Source of the DNA: Zygnema cylindricum
Lineage: Eukaryota; Streptophyta; Zygnematophyceae; Zygnematales; Zygnemataceae
Assembly (NCBI GenBank): GCA_037447655.1
Contig: JBBHKE010000059.1
Coordinates: 124,001-188,000 of the forward strand
Direction: 5' to 3'
Length of the DNA: 64,000 nucleotides
Positions 19,132 through 64,000 of this stretch are shown in pieces (the stretch's first letter is position 1; each line of letters opens with the position of its first letter). A model generated the notes under the pieces. The model saw only the letters and a program-made list of their open reading frames with translations, had not been told where the DNA came from and made no database searches. The position numbers were made by a program, and so were the translations under genes.

Positions 19132-22121
19132 TAGTTGTTCAACACGTATTTTACGCACGTTTCGAACGCGCGTACAATACGTAGAATCATGAGAGGTCGA
19201 TTTGAAAAAAACGTTAATGATTTTTTTCCCGTACAAATCCGTACATTTAAAAAAAATGAATTGAACATGTGCCGCAGTTTGTACGCTTTCCGTTAAATGA
19301 GCGGTGAAAAACATTATTTAATTAAATTATTATCACACTCTACGCATGCATCGAAACATCTACATCAACTGGTTAAGGACTTCTGCACCGGTGTATACTA
19401 GATGACGTACACAGGCGCAGGTTCAATTCTTTCGAAATGCATTTTTATTATAATAAAATTGCCTGTCCTTCACAGACAGGCAGCCATGGCTTTCTTTCTC
19501 TACCTCTCCGAGAGCATGCAACTTCAAAAAAACAAAGTTCAGGCCATATGCAGATTCAATTTTTCATCAATCAACATTGCACGACATAACACATTGATAA
19601 AAAAAAACAAAAACAATCACATTAGAGCAAAAAAAAAATACATATATGTCCTTTAACTACTTTTTACTCTAAATCTTCTTCCACTTCATCAAATTCCATC
19701 ATGTCTTCATCTGCATCGTCTTCCCTAACCTCCCTTTTCTCTTCTTCCCATTCTATCAGATTTTCTTCATAGCTGACATCCGTAATCTTCTTTAAAAGTT
19801 TGAGATTAGTGAAGACCCATACTAGATCATTAGCCCATTTAGCCGTTAACCTATTTCTTTTCTTTGAGTGAATATGGTCATATGTCGACCAATTTCGCTG
19901 ACAGGAGCTGGCAGCCGAGCACTGTGCAAGTATTTTTACTGCTACCTTCTGCAAAATAGGGGTGGCACACCCAAACTCTTGCCACCACTTCCATGCTGGC
20001 ATCAATTTTGCACAAGATATTGTCAGTTCCCTACCAAAAACTCCCTCAAACTCTCTATATTTTGACAACTCTATGCGGGCAACTTGTTGCTCCTCCATAT
20101 TTGGAAGCATCCTCTCCAACATTGTCTGAAAACCTTCCATAACAGTCTCGTTGGCACGCTACCCATATGCATGACTTTGATACTCCTGATCGAGTACAAA
20201 GTCAGCCGCATAAATGGGGCTATGCGCCATCTTCCACCTCGTCAACCATGATGCTTTCATCTCTTCCAAAATCTGCATGCCGTCGTGAATATTATCTCCT
20301 CCTGCGCAAGCTAAATTATCCAAAAACTGTCCAATGGCGTAAAAACCGTGATAAACCTTCCCCACATTCGGGCCACCTCTATTGCATTCCCTCATCAACC
20401 GCACCACAAGTTCCGAAATTGACACGGCCACTTTCGCTCTAACCCAAAACTCCGTGCTTAGAATGTAGTACCTAATTTTAGCCCCCTCCATCTTGTACAT
20501 TGGCTTGCCCACCCATTCATTGAATTTGTCGTCGAACATCAACCGCTCCAAACTCTCTTTCACATCTAATATCCTCTGGAGCATAATAAAATTTGTAGCA
20601 AACCTAGTCTCTCCAGGTTTCAGAAGCCGAAGATTTTAAATTTTATTAAACATGGCTACACCCATGCTATGATTAGTGATGAATTTCAAAATTTCTTTTG
20701 CCTCTCGGACAGGTTTGGAGATAAAGGTCAACCTACTCCAATCTTCCAACATCAAGTCCAGTACATGTGCAGCGCATGGCGTCCACGTGATAGAAGGGTG
20801 CTTTGCCACGAGCAACGAAGTTGCCGCCTTGTTCACTGGGGCAAAATCGGTAACAATCTGCACCACATTCTCGACCCCTACCGCAAGTTTTCCCTTTTCC
20901 AACACCGCACAAATGTAGTCGGCGTCCTTCGTTTTTCCAGTGGTGTCCTCTGCCGTCAAGAACATGTCACCTTTCAGGGTGACAGCTAAAATATTTAGCC
21001 AAGGACTGGCATCTATTGATGTCCACCCGTCTGATGTGATTGTGGCACCGGTGACTTCAATGGTTTTCACATAACTTGACAAATTCTTCATCACATTCGC
21101 CTTTGTCTCCAATAGGAGACAATTTCTCATTGCACTACGGATTGGTAACTTGTAATTCACACCTACATCACCAGTCTTCTTCACCGCATCCTTGAAATAC
21201 GGGTCATCTAAAAGTCTGAACGGCAATCCATTGGCAGAAAAAAATGTGGCCCAAGCTAAATCTACCTCCTTCTTGTTTTGCATGCTGAATGCACTTTGTA
21301 TTTTGTCTGAACAACTGTTGCTTTGGTCCTTGGAGTCAGTGGAAAACTGCACGTCAGTTCATCAAGGTCACTGATTACACGTTTTTTAGAGAAATTAGAC
21401 AATTTTTCGTTGTCACCTGCGATATACTCCTCCTTCACCTCGGCTGGACACATTGTGCAAGCTCTAATCCCTCCACACTTGACATTTCCAGTGAGATGGT
21501 TTCTGATCCTAGTTGCTTGGGCGATAAATTCGAAGCTACAGTAAATACAAACACATAATCTATTGGCTACTAGGATCACACCGTCTGGAGGCTTCACGTG
21601 GTCCCACTCCTCTCCCCGAACTCTAGGCATGGCCGCTTTTTTGGAGGTTCGTGACTTTTTCGTCAACGACTTCAACGACAGTTTACTAACTGTTGCCGTG
21701 GCGACGGTAATGGCGTCTTCTATGATTTTTCGGGTTCAGCTGTTCAAGTAATAATTGCGGCTTCTTTTCAAAATTTGAAGAAGACGCCCGTACAAAATTT
21801 GAACTCACGGTGCTCAAATAGTGTGACGCCGTAACGTCTCTTTTTGGAAATATTTGTAGACGTCACATTATTTTCCCGTGCAATCCATGTACATTATGTT
21901 CGGTTTACTGAACAGAAAGTACGGATACGCGCATCGATTTTTTTTTGTAAACTACCGTACAGTTTTCGTAAAAAAATTAACAGTTACAGTATTTTTTATA
22001 TTAATTTCCATAATATGTCAGTTTCAGTTTACAGTAGACGTTTTTTTGCATATTTTTCAAAAGTCACGTACAATACGTAGAAACTGGAAAATATGGAAAA
22101 AATCCACGTATTGAACAACTA
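19132..22121 (-). mobile_element. hAT DNA transposon, degenerate
   Basis: A transposase pseudogene (19664-21690) is bracketed by imperfect inverted ends: TAGTTGTTCAACACGTA at 19132-19148 and its partner CACGTATTGAACAACTA at 22105-22121. Both sides also share ACAATACGTAGAA blocks just inside. I could not find a convincing 8-bp target duplication. A piece at about 19340-19510 resembles the main Copia LTR (tRNA-like module plus CAGCCATGGCT), perhaps a nested fragment. Confidence 0.6.
19664..21690 (-). pseudogene. hAT transposase, broken (BED finger, DUF659, dimerisation domain)
   Basis: Read on the minus strand, the first piece (21675-21262) is a BED-type zinc finger region (WDHVKPPDG, CIYCSFEF, RIRNHLTG). 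Next, in another frame, comes 21352-20636 with DUF659 hallmarks (ITSDGWTS, VTDFAPVNKAA, WTPCAAHVLDLML). In that same frame an in-frame TAA is followed by the piece with RPGxTRFAT-type sequence and 20584-20159. An in-frame TAG then precedes 20140-19664, the C-terminal dimerisation domain (CQRNWSTYDHIHSKKRNRL). One frameshift and two stops make it non-functional. The closing residues are very acidic. The family assignment is firm; nothing suggests domestication, since the frame is disrupted. Confidence 0.85.
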
Positions 22122-24835: not shown

Positions 24836-25446
24836 NNNNNNNNNNNNNNNNNNNNNNNNNNNNNNNNNNNNNNNNNNNNNNNNNNNNNNNNNNNNNNNNN
24901 NNNNNNNNNNNNNNNNNNNNNNNNNNNNNNNNNNNNNNNNNNNNNNNNNNNNNNNNNNNNNNNNNNNNNNNNNNNNNNNNNNNNNNNNNNNNNNNNNNNN
25001 NNNNNNNNNNNNNNNNNNNNNNNNNNNNNNNNNNNNNNNNNNNNNNNNNNNNNNNNNNNNNNNNNNNNNNNNNNNNNNNNNNNNNNNNNNNNNNNNNNNN
25101 NNNNNNNNNNNNNNNNNNNNNNNNNNNNNNNNNNNNNNNNNNNNNNNNNNNNNNNNNNNNNNNNNNNNNNNNNNNNNNNNNNNNNNNNNNNNNNNNNNNN
25201 NNNNNNNNNNNNNNNNNNNNNNNNNNNNNNNNNNNNNNNNNNNNNNNNNNNNNNNNNNNNNNNNNNNNNNNNNNNNNNNNNNNNNNNNNNNNNNNNNNNN
25301 NNNNNNNNNNNNNNNNNNNNNNNNNNNNNNNNNNNNNNNNNNNNNNNNNNNNNNNNNNNNNNNNNNNNNNNNNNNNNNNNNNNNNNNNNNNNNNNNNNNN
25401 NNNNNNNNNNNNNNNNNNNNNNNNNNNNNNNNNNNNNNNNNNNNNN
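24836..25446. other. Assembly gap (611 N)
   Basis: Run of N. Order and orientation of sequence across it depend on scaffolding only. The open frames spanning it are artefacts. Confidence 1.
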
Positions 25447-46438: not shown

Positions 46439-47483
46439 TGAAACTCTGAGACCTCCATAAGTCCTCAGAGTAGACAGCTTCCGAGAAGCCTCTAGGATAA
46501 TCCTGACCCCTTTGTGTTGCAGCAAAAATAGCTACCACCCTGGCAGACAAAAACCCTGATCACCTCACCCGTGTGAAGGCAAGACTCCTCTGAGTTGATA
46601 GCAAAAAGAATCTCTGAATTTGCTCCCCTAAGCAATAAGTTATGGAGGGTCAAAGTTGACCTTTTGTACAGAAGCTCTCTAGGAGAGAGGGTCCTATCTT
46701 CTAATTTTTCTAAGTCCTATCTCTCTCACAGACTCTATCTACTGATGTACGGAACCAATTAGAATTGAGTTCCGTACGCAAAAGTACAGCTGCCGGTGTA
46801 CTGTATGTACGGACATTGTACGACATGGCCAAAATGTCGACACATGTCAAATCCGGATTCGGTGCCTTAATCTCTGGAGATTCCACAATCCAACGGAATT
46901 TTGCCACGCGTCATCCGATGTGGCGATGGCCACAAACCGCCGAAATCTTCCTCCGCGATCTCGGCGCTAATTGCGGCGGTTCGATTAAACTCGGATTTAA
47001 TCGTAGCCGTAATAAATACATGCGCGGTATTTGTTTCACTTACGAAACAAATGCGCGGTATTGATTTTTGTCCGTACCGTAATTCGTACATTATATATTA
47101 CTGGATCTATGTATCCCGTAATCTATAACAGTTAAATGATTTATCGTACGTATACCTATTTAAATAAATATCAAACTATATAGTATGTAACACTATTGCT
47201 AGACTTAACGGCTAAGGCTACCGGCTATTTCCCGTCTGCCGACGGGTAGGTACAAGGATCAAATCCTGCCGCCGGCACATACCTTTTAAATAAATAAACC
47301 CTAATATAAAATTCCCGTAAACCTTAGGATAGCCTAGGTAGCCATGGCTCTAGCTTCCTCTCCAATTTCTCAGTGACTGCGACAAGTTTGAGAGTTGGAG
47401 AGAGAAGTTAGAGATAGACTGCCTCGGCTTCTATATTTCTTTTCAGACCTAGAAAATATTAATAAAAACCATTAGTTTCTACA
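46439..47483 (-). mobile_element. Copia LTR, minus strand
   Basis: 1045-bp LTR running, in its own sense, TGTAGAAACTAATGG to GAGTTTCA. It is highly similar to the plus-strand LTR at 51126-52173. In the element's sense it follows a truncated gag without a polypurine tract. The tRNA-like module lies at 47203-47277. Confidence 0.85.
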
Positions 47484-51125: not shown

Positions 51126-52173
51126 TGTGGAAACTAATGGTTTTAAGTATTTTCTACGTCTGAAAAGAAATAAAGAAGCCGAGGCAGTCTATCTCTAACT
51201 TCTCTCTCCAACTCTCAAACTTGTCGCAGTCACTGAGAAATTGGAGAGGAAGCTAGAGCCCATGGCTACCTTGGCTATCCTGAGGTTTACGGGAATTTTA
51301 TATTAGGGTTTATTTATTTAATTAAAAGGTATGTGCCGGCGGCAGGATTTGATCCTTGTACCTACCGGCCTGCAGACAAGAAATAGCGGGTAGCCTTAGC
51401 CGTTAAGTATAGCGGTAGTGTTATGTAGCATGTAGTTTGATATTTATTTAAATAGGTATACGTGCGATAAACCATTTTACTGAAATGAATTACGGGATAC
51501 ATAGATCCAGTAATATATAATGTACAACTTACGGTACGGACACAAATCAAGACCGCGCATTTGTTTCGTAAATGAAACAAATACCGCGCATGTATTTATT
51601 ACGGCTACAATTAAAGCCGAATTTAATTGGACGGCCGGGATTAGCGCCGAGATCGCGGAGGAAGATTTCGGCGGTTTGTGGCCATTGCCACATCGGATGA
51701 CGCGTGGCGAAATTCTGTTGGATTGTGGAATCTCCGGAGATTATGGCACCGAATCCGGATTTGACATGTATCGACATTTTGGCCATGTCGTACAATGGCC
51801 GTACATAAAGTACACCGGCAACTGTACTTTTACGTACGGAACTCAATTTTGATTGGTTCCGTACATCAGTAGATAGAGTTTGTGAGAGAGATAGGACTTA
51901 GAAAAATTAGAAGATAAGACCCCCTCTCCCACAGAGCTTCTGTACAAAAGGTCAACTTTGACCCTCCATAACTTACTGCTCAGGGGAGAAAATTCAGAGA
52001 TTCTTTTTGCTACCAACTCAGGGGAGTCTTGCCTTCACAGGGGTATAAGTGGTCAAGGTTTTTGTCAGCCAAGGTGGCAGTTATTTTTGCTGAAACACAA
52101 AGGGGTCAGGATTATCCTAGAGGCTTCTTGGAAGCTGTCTACTCTGAGGACTTATGGAGGTCTTAGAGTTTCA
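51126..52173 (+). mobile_element. Solo Copia LTR, plus strand
   Basis: TGTGGAAACTAATGG to GAGTTTCA, 1048 bp, with no internal domain on either side. Flanks GAGCC (51121-51125) and GAGTC (52174-52178) are a target duplication with one mismatch. It is the near twin of 46439-47483 in opposite orientation. Confidence 0.8.
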
Positions 52174-58173: not shown

Positions 58174-60318
58174 AATAAACTGGCTTCGACATATCTGTCA
58201 TGCCATAAGAGGTCAACGGGTATTTTGATTAAAACCTGTACTAATTGAAGTTTCAGTGACGTGACAAGTACATATCCGAGAGTACAACTAGAGATTCGTA
58301 CGGGACAAAGGTCGATATATACTCTCGTACGGCACCACGGGAACACAATGTGAAATCAGCGTGGCACTGGACCATGGTACGGCATCAAACGTCAGGAATT
58401 CAAACGGCTACAAACCTGACAGGTGTCTGAAGTCATGAACACTAGGAGGTTCATGCATCATTTTTTCTTAGCTTAGGGAGGGTTTTTATCCTCGAGGTGT
58501 AGGTGTAAGGCAGTCCGAGGCGGCCACGCAGCGGTCGTCTCTTGAAACTGGCAGCGTTTTAACATAGAAACCTGCCTACTCGGAGACATGTAGGAATTAG
58601 TGTTTCCGTACGGATTAGTGAAAGCATAGGATAAATGCCATTTGTCGAGATAGGAACTTTTGCAAATTAAGTACGGGAATCCAACATTGGAAGGTTGTCG
58701 TTTTCTGACAAGCATTATTCTCGGGATTTGTTGAACTCTACTGTTAGGGTTTCACCTGAATATTTAGTGACAGGCTAGTTTTTGAGTTAGGGTTTTTCCT
58801 TTTTCAGACCCATAGTTTCATGCTAGTAATTGTCTCTGAGCTTCTCCTTTTATTTATTTTAAGACCTTACCTAATCTACCGGCGCAAGCAAGCTTGCAAG
58901 GTTTCCCTCCAGACTATTTTCTACTTGCTGTGATTTGTGAATTGTGTCTGTGGACTTGGCGTTTTCTCGTTGTCTAGACGTTGACCGCACGGGCTGGTAC
59001 TCACCTTGTCTGGCCTTAGAGGAATGCCGGTTTTCTCGGCTCTATCATCCGGCTAAGGAAGGGTTCTTACAAACTGATTGGACTCCTGTAGGGAATATTG
59101 ATGACTTCAGGGCCTAGTGGCTACTATCGCAAGTATTCCCGTACTTAATTTGTTTTTATTTCTAATTTTTTGTATTCCTGGTGTTAATTAGTTTCTTTAA
59201 TTCTAGTTTATTTTAATTTGCTTATTTCTATTTTTCTTCATTATTGGTGACAATTGCTTTCTTTCCATCTACTTATTATTATTTGTTTCTTTCCCAGTCT
59301 TGTATTTTCGATCTTTAGGGTTTCGTTGCTAGTGTGCTTGGAGTTTGATATTTCCGATTTTATATGGACATCCGGTATAGTTTCCTCTTGCTGTCCACCT
59401 ACCGGATTAACTCACTCAAAAAACCTAGCAAACCTAAAAAAAAAAAAAAAACTTATATAAAAAAAAAATCTATATTCAAAACTAAGAAAAAAAAAACAAA
59501 TATTCATTCATTTAAATATATAAATTAGCTTGCATGAATTATCACATAAAATTATAATTGTTTTAATAGTTGGGTAGAGCGTGGCTTAAAGCTGATACGC
59601 GTACCCTAACAGGCTACTGACTACGTTGGTATTTTGAGTTGTGAAATCTTTTCGACGATTCGGAGTTGGAAGGAGGTTGCAGCATCGCTAGAGACCTTAC
59701 AGATCGCGCCATGTGAGTAATCAAGTCCTTGTGGTTGCAGGCGCGTGATAGGTTGTTAAGCGCGATAACCTAGAGGGGTTAGAATCCGACCGAAGGCTGC
59801 GCCTTCCTTTTCGCATAGGCATTGTGGTTGCATTTTCTTGAGATCTGACCGTGATTGGTCTTGGATAGCGACTTCTTGCCTATTACACTTGGCCTTGTTG
59901 GGCCAGGATAATTTCCTGTTTTATTACATTTGGCCTTGTGGGCCTTGGATAGTTTCCTGTTTACTACATCTGGCCTTGTGGGCCTTGAATAGTTTTCTGT
60001 TTTATTAAATCTGGCCACAAGTGGCCTTGCATAGGTGACATGTTTCTTCTTGGAGTGGCTTGACGTGACTTATTGTGGTATTGCTTAGATCTGGCTGTGA
60101 ACAGCCTTGTTATGGGTATTCACGATTAGACTAACCCCGGTGATACAGAATAGATCAAATCGTTTACGGGGGTGCTTGTTTGCGTGGGTGCTTGTTTGCG
60201 TGAATTTGAAGACTTACTGTGTGATTTGATTATTAGATCTGGCGGCAGACATTTGCACACTGACCCTGAGTAGGGTCTTGCATCTAGTTGCATCCGGATA
60301 GGACGACTATCTGTTTAC
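58174..60318 (+). other. Non-coding region upstream of the Gypsy-like gag (probable LTR and leader)
   Basis: No domain-bearing frame in 2.1 kb. AT-rich and pyrimidine-rich parts alternate. I could not fix LTR borders or a primer-binding site, because the 3' LTR needed for comparison lies beyond the window. A tandem repeat sits at 59870-60040. Confidence 0.4.
59870..60040 (+). repeat. Tandem repeat in the Gypsy leader
   Basis: About four units of 41-46 bases with the core TTGGCCTTGTGGGCCTTGGA and TAGTTTCCTGTTTTATTACA. A related CTTGTTTGCGTG doublet follows at 60168-60200. Confidence 0.7.
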
Positions 60319-61328
60319 ATGCCAACGGACTGGAAGAATTTACCATTTCCAGCGGGTACCACTAGAAGCTCCAGTCTTTACCGTGGACCGCACCGGGATC
60401 TGATTCCCGCCCGCTCACCTTCTATCATGTTTCTAGGTCATACTGGTCATACCGCTCAGTCTCAACTTACGGGTTCACCCGACTCTAGATCTGGTATATG
60501 CCACTACATATAGATCTACATCATCGGTCTCCTCATCCTCTTCCCATAATTGGGGGGAAGATTCGGGCATATACTCCCTTGATATCCGGGATCTAAATCT
60601 ACCACCTTCGATTTTTCCTTTGAGCAAAAATACACACACTAACTCCGATACCTCTTTTGGGGATATGGCCTCGCCCATAAACACCGGAGGAGGTAGAAAT
60701 CAGTTTTGTTTTTCGGGTCTCAAGGACACTATGTCCTTGTCACATTTTCGAATGCTTTTTGATACCGAGATGCGCAATCTCGCATTCCGATATCGAGACC
60801 GTTATGATTTGCGGGTTGCTTTCTCGTTACTTGGGCGATACCTTAGGGGATCTGCCCTATCCCTATATACACAGAAATATGCGGCAATTTGTGCTATGAC
60901 AGAAATGGCACCCGCATATTCTGGATCTTTAGCCATAACTGGCAGTCCAGAAATTCTTTTCCAAGCTGCGGTACCCGCAGTTTATGACTCTGCAGGTAAC
61001 AAAATTTCACCTGAAATACTTGAGGTCCCTCATCAGTTCGCCGTTGTGGCTCGGGCTGCAATTCCAGCCCGCCCTGCAATGCTGGTTCCTCTAAGGGATC
61101 CAGTATCAATTGTTTTCAGTTTATTACAATAAGAGTACCGAATGCAAAATCCCGATCAGGTTAAAGAACTAATGAATTTCGAACGTCGCCCGTGCGAAAC
61201 TGCTCCGGCATTGAAGCCATATGGAAACATTACGTGAAGCACTGCCAGATCTCATGTCAGACGCAGAGGCAGTTCAAAAATTTGTGGGGCAATTTCCCAC
61301 CCAATCTCGACGTTTTATTTAAAGCCAT
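60319..61328 (+). pseudogene. Gypsy-like gag, capsid part (broken)
   Basis: An ATG at 60319 opens a basic Pro/Ser-rich N-terminus (MPTDWKNLPFPAGTTRSS). Around 60480 the likely frame changes. 60437-61132 reads SSSSSHNWGEDSG, then capsid-like SHFRMLFDTEMRNLAFRYRD and FSLLGRYLRGSALSLYTQKY. An in-frame TAA (61130-61132) follows, the frame continues to about 61235, then shifts to METLREALPDLMSDAE (61221 on) with a TAA at about 61318. The pattern (globular helical region with YLRGSAL) suits an LTR-retrotransposon capsid. At least two frame changes and two stops make it inactive. Confidence 0.6.
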
Positions 61329-62303
61329 TTGACTGAGGCATATGACCTCAAATTTACTATCGAGCAGGCTGCAGAATACGCCGTACGGTATGAAATGGAA
61401 ACCAGCTGGTGGGACACTCACGCGCGACCTAATTCTTCTCCCAATGCAAACCCGAATCCTAATCCTAACCCACGCAACCCACGGCCCAATCCGAGACCTC
61501 CAAGGGCTCCGACCATGGGAACATTACCAACAAACCCTGGTGTTCGTATATGTTTTCGATATGGTAACATTGGTCACGACGCACGCAGCTGTCCTGGTAA
61601 GACCGCCACATGTACTCATTGTAATCAAACGGGTCATTATGTACATCGATGTCACATTAAAAATCCCGATTTCGGTTATCAAAATCAAATCAAAAACGGC
61701 GATATACCTGCTTGCTCGGCAAAATTGGTCACTCCACCCAAAGGGGTAGAGAAAGACTACCCTCCAAAAATCAGCAGGAGGGACCGAGAGAAAGCCGAGA
61801 TGCAGGCTACCGTAGCGGCTATGATGAAGGAGCAGTTTGCCGCGCTTATGGCGCAGGTCAAACCGCAATTAACCGGAATGGCCCGAACTGTGGTCCATAT
61901 GCCCTCTTTTGCTGGGCGATCTCTTCGGGAGTCCACTGTTCAACAGCGGGCAGCTCAGTTTAAAGGGACTCCCGATCACAATCGCGAGTCAAAATCCATT
62001 AACACACGAATCCCATTATCATTTGCCAAAGAACCCCGCTCACCTATTCCAGAAACAGCCTCAAGCATCACCGCTGAGGCATTAACTATTTTAGAGAAGA
62101 GTATACAAGACACATATAAGGTCAAAGAACGTCTGTCCATCCTGTCCACAATGCTTCCGGAGTTGGATAGCAACGAAAAAACTATAGATCTAACTCCTTC
62201 AGCAGTTGCGTTACAAGCATTCAAAACCATCGTAATGCTCTCTCTCTTCAAGCTATTACTATTGAGGAGCGGTCTAGCCTCACTCCTCACATCAGTTTTC
62301 TAG
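61329..62303 (+). pseudogene. Gypsy-like gag C-terminus with zinc knuckles
   Basis: An open frame of 324 residues continues the capsid end (AYDLKFTIEQAAEYAVRYEM). It follows with an Asn/Pro/Arg-rich linker (residues about 34-62) and two zinc knuckles. The first reads CFRYGNIGHDARSC, with its second Cys changed to Tyr; the second, CTHCNQTGHYVHRC, is intact. A charged helix (RRDREKAEMQATVAAMMKEQ) and a long linker lead to the protease. Near 62230 the true frame shifts, so the last 20 residues of the open frame are spurious. Confidence 0.75.
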
Positions 62304-62700
62304 ATAACAAATTGGGCATTTTTACGGTTAATGGGTTTGCTCCGGCACTTCCTCTCATTGATACAAGCGCAAAGCCAATTATCCTCGGTTCTGATTTTGC
62401 CATCAAAATAGGTCTTACAACGGATAAGTTACAACCTACTACCACACGTCTATTGACTTCCGCGGTACCACAGAGCCAGTCCTCGGTATTACGATAGATC
62501 CAATCTGTTTTCAGTTTCAGAGTCAGTCAGCGACGGATTTCGCAGAAATTTATGCTCACGCCTTTGTCACCAAGTGTAGTGACTATGAATGCTTGGTCGG
62601 TCAAGACGTTATTTTTCGAGTTGGGGGGGGGGTTGATATGCATGATCACACATTTTCGTACAGGCCGAACAACTTTCCGGAACGTAAAATTTGCTTACCC
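62246..62700 (+). pseudogene. Retropepsin-like protease of the Gypsy-like element
   Basis: In one frame: ITIEERSSLTPHISFLDNKL, then the active-site region LPLIDTSAKPIILGSDFAIK (canonical DTGA is DTSA here). After a frame change at about 62450, the second half reads TTEPVLGITIDPICFQFQSQ and CLVGQDVIFRVGGGVDM. The order (zinc knuckles, then DTxA protease with an LVGQD-type second half) is that of Ty3/Gypsy-like polyproteins. The Gly-to-Ser change at the active site may reduce or abolish activity. Confidence 0.65.
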
Positions 62701-64000
62701 CTTATCTCAGCGCGGCAACCCATGCCTACTACGCCCCATTCGGCGCTGATCTTGCCAGCCTATGCCGCAGTTGGCATAGGTGCAGACATCCTTGAATCTC
62801 TAACAGTGGATGAAATCTCACCAGATTCCCCGAGTTTACCTGAATTATTTAGTACACCGGGATTTATCATAAACTCTTCGGAATTTGACCAGCTTTATAA
62901 ATTTACTATACCAATACCTTTATCTAGTATTCCAGATCCACCCTCCATTACGATGGATCCGTCCGGGTTCCTGCCCATTAAATGGACACCAGTCAATTTA
63001 CAACCTCACCAAAACGATCTCGTTATCTTGGACCTTTTTGCAGGAATAGGGACTTCACTTCTCTCTTGCCTTCGGAACGGTCTTCTGATAAAGCATTACT
63101 ATTCCATAGATATTGATCCTTTAGCCAGGCGCGCTCAGTTGCACCACTGTCAAGTCTTGCACGAAGAGTATCCTCATCTCTTACCCCAGTCTGCGTTCCA
63201 CGATATGCATTCGGCGTTGCCACAGGATATCCGGCAATAGGGAATCATCATTTAATGGAATTAAAACCAATTGATCTCCTCTTTGCCGGATGGGAATGTC
63301 AGGGTATGTCTAGGGCCGGGAAAGGTTTAGGTCTTTCACATCCGCGCACTAAGCTGTTCTTCGAGGTGGTTCGTCTGATCCATTTTTTCCAAAAATTGGA
63401 TCGTCCTTTTGGATACATCTTAGAGAACGTAGCAGCTTACAATGACCCCCGACCTACGGTCCTCGCAGATTATAAACGTATTGAATCATTAATTGGACCA
63501 CCACTGATCATTGATGCCGCACGCCACGGTTCGCTGGCCCACCGGGTCCGTTCCAAGTGGACTAACCTGGTGGACATGGGTCGGCTCCGAGAGGCTAACC
63601 TCGCTGTCCGACCACCTAACCTTTCCATTCAGGATGCACTTCTTCCATTTCATAAAGTCCAGACATGTATATTGACAGACTATCCTCCTGCATTTGGTCT
63701 TAACATCCCGGGCCAACCACTACGTGCACTGCCTACACTAGTTGCATATCCACACTCTCACGCATACTCGCATGATGGACCGGGCATGCTTCAGAATACT
63801 CATATAGGCAGCTTAGAGGAACCTACTGCCACAGAACGAGAACATCTTTTACATTTCATCTCAAGCACCACTGCTGCTCCGGGACTCACCGACAGGCAAC
63901 GTTGCACCTTACTTGGTCGTGTCATGGATCCCCAATGACTGTCATTTGTCTTAGGCATGGGGTTCGCAGCCGGTCGATACGCACAGAACCATCCGTCTCA
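62701..64000 (+). pseudogene. C5-cytosine DNA methyltransferase domain carried by the retroelement
   Basis: It continues in the protease's second frame. Seen motifs: I, DLFAGIG at 63031-63051 (SAM binding); II, SIDIDP at 63103-63120; IV, LLFAGWECQGMSRAGKGLG with the catalytic Cys codon at 63297-63299 (usual PCQ is ECQ); VI, ENV at 63423-63431; VIII-like SLAHRVRSKWTNL with HRVR at 63540-63551; and a C-terminal QRCTLLGRVMD resembling motif X. The HRxR-x2-WxNL block and the closing LLGR resemble DNMT3-type enzymes more than DNMT1/CMT; I see no chromodomain, BAH or PWWP. Breaks: a frameshift near 63240 between motifs II and IV, and a TGA at 63936-63938 after which coding-like sequence (LSFVLGMGFAAGRYAQNHPS) runs off the window. 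The domain is joined to gag and protease in one strand and order, so it belongs to the element rather than to a nearby gene. Confidence 0.85.

Follow-up and report, generated by a model that had tools for sequence, protein, structure and literature searches.

A 64,000-nucleotide stretch of contig C46 (C46:124001-188000, here called the window) ends inside a retrotransposon that carries its own cytosine-C5 DNA methyltransferase (C5 methyltransferase). It is confirmed that positions 58196-64000 are the 5' part of a decayed, multi-copy element of the Gypsy type. From 60319 to 64000 the plus strand encodes gag with its zinc knuckles, then a retropepsin-like stretch and then the C5 methyltransferase (Table 1). 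An original prediction, made from the sequence alone, had read the zinc knuckle, protease and methyltransferase motifs as successive on one strand, and the motifs, the Pfam family PF00145 and alignment to an open relative on contig C1344 bear this out. It had placed the start of the element at 60319, but alignment to repeat A of the C1344 copy moves the 5' end to 58196. Approximately 4.6 kb of the window copy lies beyond the window's last base. The prediction expected a reverse transcriptase (RT) there, with the methyltransferase between it and the protease, and RT, RNase H and integrase are indeed found on the contig past 64000.

Table 1. Parts of the window copy, in window positions unless a locus is named
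Feature	Position	Strand	Size and basis
Repeat A1, 5' end of the element, first letters TGTCATGCC	58196..59135	+	940 bp; 88% identical to C1344 repeat A over 943 columns
Leader from A1 to gag; no B repeat after A1	59136..60318	+	
gag, frames broken; ATG at 60319, where the open relative also starts in the alignment	60319..62340	+	tblastn
Two CCHC zinc knuckles within gag	61552-61652	+	read from sequence
Retropepsin-like protease, over two frames, approximate borders	62341..62640	+	weak Pfam Asp_protease_2 match and alignment to the open relative
DNMT3-type C5 methyltransferase domain, lying in two frames, with a single in-frame stop close to the end	62965..63992	+	PF00145, DNMT3A
Methyltransferase motifs: motif I; ECQ; ENV	63028-63054; 63294-63302; 63424-63432	+	
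Continuation: RT, RNase H, integrase part, PHD, B1, interrupted A2	63993..64000, on into L031:1000-5635 (window 64000 = L031:1000)	+	

The window copy is broken. Aligned to the open C1344 relative with tblastn, it falls into seven pieces in three frames. Its methyltransferase has FAGIG and SIDIDP in one frame and ECQ, ENV, HRVR and LLGR in another; PF00145 matches it with an E of 1.2e-9 (38.5 bits, cut-off 22), its best solved relative is DNMT3A (E 2e-9) and it is 94% identical to the C1344 domain over 233 residues. The protease shows a DTSA motif at 62360-62371, read from the sequence, and the Asp_protease_2 match in this broken copy reaches only E 0.023. The gene order is beyond chance because the relative, open over 2395 codons, aligns to it from gag to the PHD finger. 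Repeat A1 resembles the copy's own interrupted A2 beyond the window (92.6% over 324 bp and 92.5% over 228 bp). Directly after A2 there is an inverted partial copy of the same element (L031:5783-7585, minus strand, equal to C46:192783-194585). It has an open 601-residue frame from protease to methyltransferase and ends at a Copia-like long terminal repeat (LTR) of 890 bp, which is 97.8% identical to a second LTR further on.

The genome searched comprises 352.8 Mb in 2689 contigs, and at least 123 matches to PF00145 were found in it (123 scored of 782 candidates). One copy, on C1344 (L033/L034), has gag, CCHC, protease, methyltransferase, RT, RNase H, integrase and PHD finger all in one uninterrupted frame of 2395 codons; the protease was placed by motif and is absent from the copy's Pfam matches. 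Therefore intact copies exist. A second family, found on C1374, has the same domain order, the motif PCQ in place of ECQ and a methyltransferase approximately 42% identical to the ECQ one. Two outcomes would have spoken against the prediction, namely no pol domains downstream and, genome-wide, methyltransferase copies lacking gag and protease, and neither turned up. The nearest solved relatives of the element's PHD finger are the PHF12, BAZ2B, KDM5-type and PHF21A fingers, several of which bind unmodified H3K4. At least one of the PF00145 matches, L007, resembles a host gene. This fragment is nearest to 9mvy, 7ubu and 4fsx (2.2e-28 to 2.3e-28, versus 8e-12 for the next chains), the last of which is presumably maize chromomethylase. 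A chromomethylase-like fragment suits the green lineage and makes the predicted streptophyte origin plausible.

Motif IV of a C5 methyltransferase usually reads PCQ. All six open rows of the ECQ family instead have Glu-Cys-Gln there, and because this is not Pro-Cys, activity is not to be assumed. Decay of the window copy was rejected as the source of ECQ, which is common to open copies and to 15 of 30 database polyproteins. The ECQ-family enzyme is under strong purifying selection, and the catalytic Cys, ENV/ENI and the motif VIII arginine region are conserved. It is nearer DNMT3 than other C5 methyltransferases, with the Dnmt3 domain unrearranged. The ECQ enzyme may be a working DNMT3-type methyltransferase with an altered motif IV.

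Relatives exist in databases. Protein searches gave 4 matches among 4037 candidates, 27 among 2154 and 177 among 7998 scored, with 120 of the 177 listed. Two of the 27 were named Haematococcus lacustris, a chlorophyte, by their source. Among 30 related polyproteins (P0002-P0004, P0006-P0032), motif IV is ECQ in 15 and PCQ in 15. Shorter element-like matches, readable in 28 of 29 cases, give 26 PCQ and 2 ECQ, while more distant enzymes have P in 91 of 91 and ECQ in none. On a tree of 40 domains, built with the motif IV column left out, there are at least six changes between P and E. Grouping ECQ as one clade is rejected by the approximately unbiased (AU) test (p-AU 5.5e-69, this group having been chosen with an earlier tree already known).

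The methyltransferase is not always in the same place. In the 30 polyproteins it precedes RT in 2 (type I) and follows it in 23 (type II); in the other 5 no RT could be placed. Seven type I rows form one branch of the RT tree, with support of 100/99. A branch of only the six labelled type I rows, leaving the unlabelled sister row L030 outside, is rejected by the AU test (p 0.002). P0022, a type II row, resembles a fusion of two elements. P0031 (3794 residues) combines RT, RNase H and C5 methyltransferase with a PCIF1-type domain (PF12237), a domain linked to RNA adenine methylation. P0035, an element-type methyltransferase on a 2.4-kb contig, is assigned by its name to a Candidatus Obscuribacterales genome bin; the contig may be eukaryotic and wrongly binned. 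No viral contig with the methyltransferase was confirmed using a broken piece of the window as query, and phage records gave general C5 methyltransferases only, at approximately 30-33% among the 20 matches listed.

The ends of the element are unusual. The prediction had been of an LTR retrotransposon. The Gypsy-type pol stands; the ordinary LTRs do not, and in place of a matching plain 3' LTR the window copy has B1 and an interrupted A2. The C1344 copy consists, in order, of A1 (931 bp), coding region, B1 (242 bp), GC, A2 (100% identical to A1) and B2 (99.6% identical to B1). This A-coding-B-A-B layout recurs in C449 and also in C1374, where 3.7 kb and a further B are added. A plain LTR at each end was rejected on this layout. 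In four of four copies tested, the window copy included, B is absent directly after A1. A G-rich tract lies immediately 5' of B1. The 3.7 kb on C1374 (C1374:31633-35348, L037-L039) lie between two B repeats of the PCQ copy. The first of these repeats stops precisely at its CA end, which would fit the insertion of an A-coding-B form.

The integrated unit has TG...CA outer ends. An exact 4-bp target duplication flanks five of nine copies (TTGG in C1344, AAGG in C829, CCCT in C1915, GTGG in C228 and AGGT in C1974), where approximately 1 in 256 would match by chance. The ends of nine further copies were sought by place. Both ends were found in C829, C1915 and C228, whereas C2577, C783, C1112, C2526, C82 and C284 had one or both ends not found and were left out of the count. 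A1 and A2 are 100% identical in C1344, 99.8% identical over 523 bp in C829 and, at the lowest, 80% identical in C449, so the insertions are young to old.

The two kinds of repeat joint behave differently. The B-GC-A joint is constant: it reads CACGACAGCTGTCATGC and is exact at 148 places, against 0 for the reversed pattern (searched with the GC spacer only). Its core, GACAGCTGTC, is a palindrome and is found again in the PCQ family. The A|B joint is variable, with 19 different sequences among 29 places (free spacing, one subfamily) and 0 in the backward control. On the A side the break lies within a few bases of the A/leader border and on the B side in or at the G tract before B1. These are the linear complementary DNA (cDNA) ends expected of a Gypsy reverse transcriptase if the LTR is B-GC-A. 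C1344 and C1848 are 100% identical (rounded) over the first 387 bases of A, yet they differ by one base at A|B, and the length at this joint differs from C1344 in five of five aligned copies. Six further A|B joints sought by place yielded one that was usable, one with a deletion across the joint and four that were missed.

How does this fit with known elements? C1344, and the window copy with its continuation, have the domains of Ty3/Gypsy (Metaviridae) in the expected order, namely gag, protease, RT, RNase H and integrase. Outer TG...CA ends and a short duplicated target, exact at 4 bp in five of the nine copies, also agree with that group. The repeats do not: instead of one complete LTR at each end there is A at the 5' end and B-A-B at the 3' end. 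The split direct repeats are those of DIRS elements, but a Pfam scan of the open polyprotein gives rve and H2C2 and no tyrosine recombinase. The kind is already known because KnitGypsy-Dnmt3 of Klebsormidium nitens has been published, with a figure legend that gives it DIRS-type repeats and Gypsy domains (de Mendoza et al., 2018, PMC5890265). Its feature set as given there, a Gypsy Pol, an unrearranged Dnmt3 domain within Pol and DIRS-type repeats, is found here too, as is purifying selection on the methyltransferase. In contrast, ECQ, the PHD finger, the joints and the duplications go without mention in the parts of its description consulted (PMC5890265), the comparison being with that description. 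The same source has SymbioDIRS-Dnmt3 and SymbioLINE-Dnmt of dinoflagellates, likewise retrotransposons with C5 methyltransferases. SymbioDIRS is also A-coding-B-A-B. However, these elements use a tyrosine recombinase (DIRS) or LINE machinery, whereas the element here has a DDE integrase (PMC5890265). Among the open-licence papers listed, as judged by title and abstract start, there was no other Gypsy-methyltransferase element. The name KnitGypsy-Dnmt3 occurs in just that one paper of the library searched, and no paper there combined PHD finger, Gypsy, green alga, DNA methyltransferase and retrotransposon. What goes beyond the descriptions found is the ECQ motif IV, the A-coding-B-A-B ends with constant and variable joints, the relatives in Haematococcus and the occurrence of relatives in two domain orders.

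An explanation has to cover the domain order, the A-coding-B-A-B repeats, the target duplications, the constant B-GC-A and variable A|B joints and the selection on the methyltransferase. What if the element passes through a circle? Reverse transcription would yield a linear cDNA with B-GC-A as its LTR, extending from the G-rich tract before B1 to the A/leader border. Host end joining would then close the cDNA into a circle with two LTRs, and the point of closure would be the variable A|B joint. A cut by the element's own DDE integrase at a palindromic B-GC-A joint (GACA^GCTGTC on both strands) would leave recessed CA ends, and insertion of the opened circle would give A-coding-B-A-B with a 4-bp duplication. 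The end layout, the palindromic joint and the 4-bp duplications together suggest such an opening of an end-joined circle at an internal palindrome. There is some precedent, in that the integrases of HIV-1 in vitro (PMC1905944) and, reportedly, foamy virus (PMC1180852) cut palindromic two-LTR joints. The integrase class and the palindromic joint are shared, but there the cutting is a side activity, whereas here the genomic layout suggests an integration route and the joint lies inside the LTR. The methyltransferase might methylate the element's own new DNA prior to integration, as disguise or protection, and the PHD finger may steer the integrase to histone H3 tails. As a whole, a Gypsy-class element with a circle route and self-methylation is the best explanation and a moderately probable one.

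Several observations weigh against it. In C449 the two sides of the 4-bp duplication differ by one base, and C561, C1307 and C1374 have none. The A repeats of C1307 are probably from different elements, because an A|B joint directly follows the first of them, and without this copy the exact duplications number five of eight. (At C1307:5123-6087, A is followed directly by B with non-element DNA before it, perhaps a solo A-B left by A1-A2 recombination.) Other small indels lie within approximately 100 bases of the A|B joint, so not every length difference there need be original, and some A|B joints recur (four were seen three times and two twice) and may be inherited. A-B-GC-A, the layout expected if the other LTR were cut, was seen 0 times versus 11 for coding-B-GC-A; the cut would thus be directed, which the circle model does not account for. 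In four copies, inspection by eye of the sequence that follows A1 revealed no tRNA primer site. Nor is there clear CpG depletion of the sort that self-methylation would leave; the values are 0.86-0.99 for three ECQ copies, 0.66 for one PCQ copy and 0.90 for the window. Finally, a yeast test of the related KnitGypsy-Dnmt3 domain gave no methylation, although it was judged inconclusive in the account consulted (PMC5890265).

The one-sided layout, 11 to 0, would also fit a templated closure. In replication like that of DIRS or Ngaro elements, the internal B-A would act as a bridging template on which reverse transcription closes the circle, making A|B a sloppy product of reverse transcription and not of end joining. 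The A-coding-B-A-B layout is that of DIRS-type elements and is stated for KnitGypsy-Dnmt3 too, in the legend mentioned above (PMC5890265). Nevertheless, this route is doubtful, given an open polyprotein with a DDE integrase and no tyrosine recombinase among its Pfam matches, 4-bp duplications in five of nine copies and the G-rich tract immediately before B1. As for the enzyme, Pro before the catalytic Cys in all 91 distant enzymes would suit an ECQ methyltransferase that is catalytically dead and retained in the polyprotein for a structural or DNA-binding role. The conserved Cys, ENV/ENI and motif VIII arginine region, the strong purifying selection and the six or more ECQ/PCQ interchanges between otherwise similar enzymes make this unlikely.

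Could an ordinary LTR element simply have been rearranged locally, with a host gene copy fallen in as the methyltransferase? In favour of this, the window copy has decayed and has an interrupted A2, and its neighbours are a Copia element and an inverted partial copy. However, C1344 has the same layout with A1 and A2 identical over 931 bp, the B-GC-A joint is exact at 148 places, the methyltransferase shares one open frame with gag and pol in C1344 and it occurs together with RT in 25 of the 30 database polyproteins, so that such an accident is very improbable. A more far-reaching proposal is that these elements belong to a lineage that has a retroviral-type integrase yet lives through a circle as DIRS elements do, each new copy passing through a circle that host end joining closes and the integrase reopens at a palindrome within the LTR. 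Methyltransferases would have been recruited repeatedly because the exposed circle needs methylation, and repeated Pro to Glu swaps in motif IV would tune or retarget the enzyme. This is tentative, a possibility that falls somewhat short of probable.

If the circle route is true, an internal palindrome would be the normal substrate of an integrase, something so far reported, in the literature consulted, for HIV-1 integrase in vitro (PMC1905944). A link between methyltransferases and circle-forming elements also becomes testable, and the ECQ enzymes offer a natural way to test the role of the proline in motif IV. The chlorophyte and environmental relatives make methyltransferase-bearing Gypsy elements wider than the one charophyte case found in print in the open-licence literature.

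The rest of the window has features of its own. A run of 611 N at 24836-25446, beside a GA-rich microsatellite, is an assembly gap or a withheld stretch. Broken frames resembling a hAT-type transposase were recognized by eye at 19664-21735 on the minus strand. Two inverted arms of 732 nt each (46567-47298 and 51313-52044) are 92% complementary and 4 kb apart, and related repeats occur elsewhere in the window.
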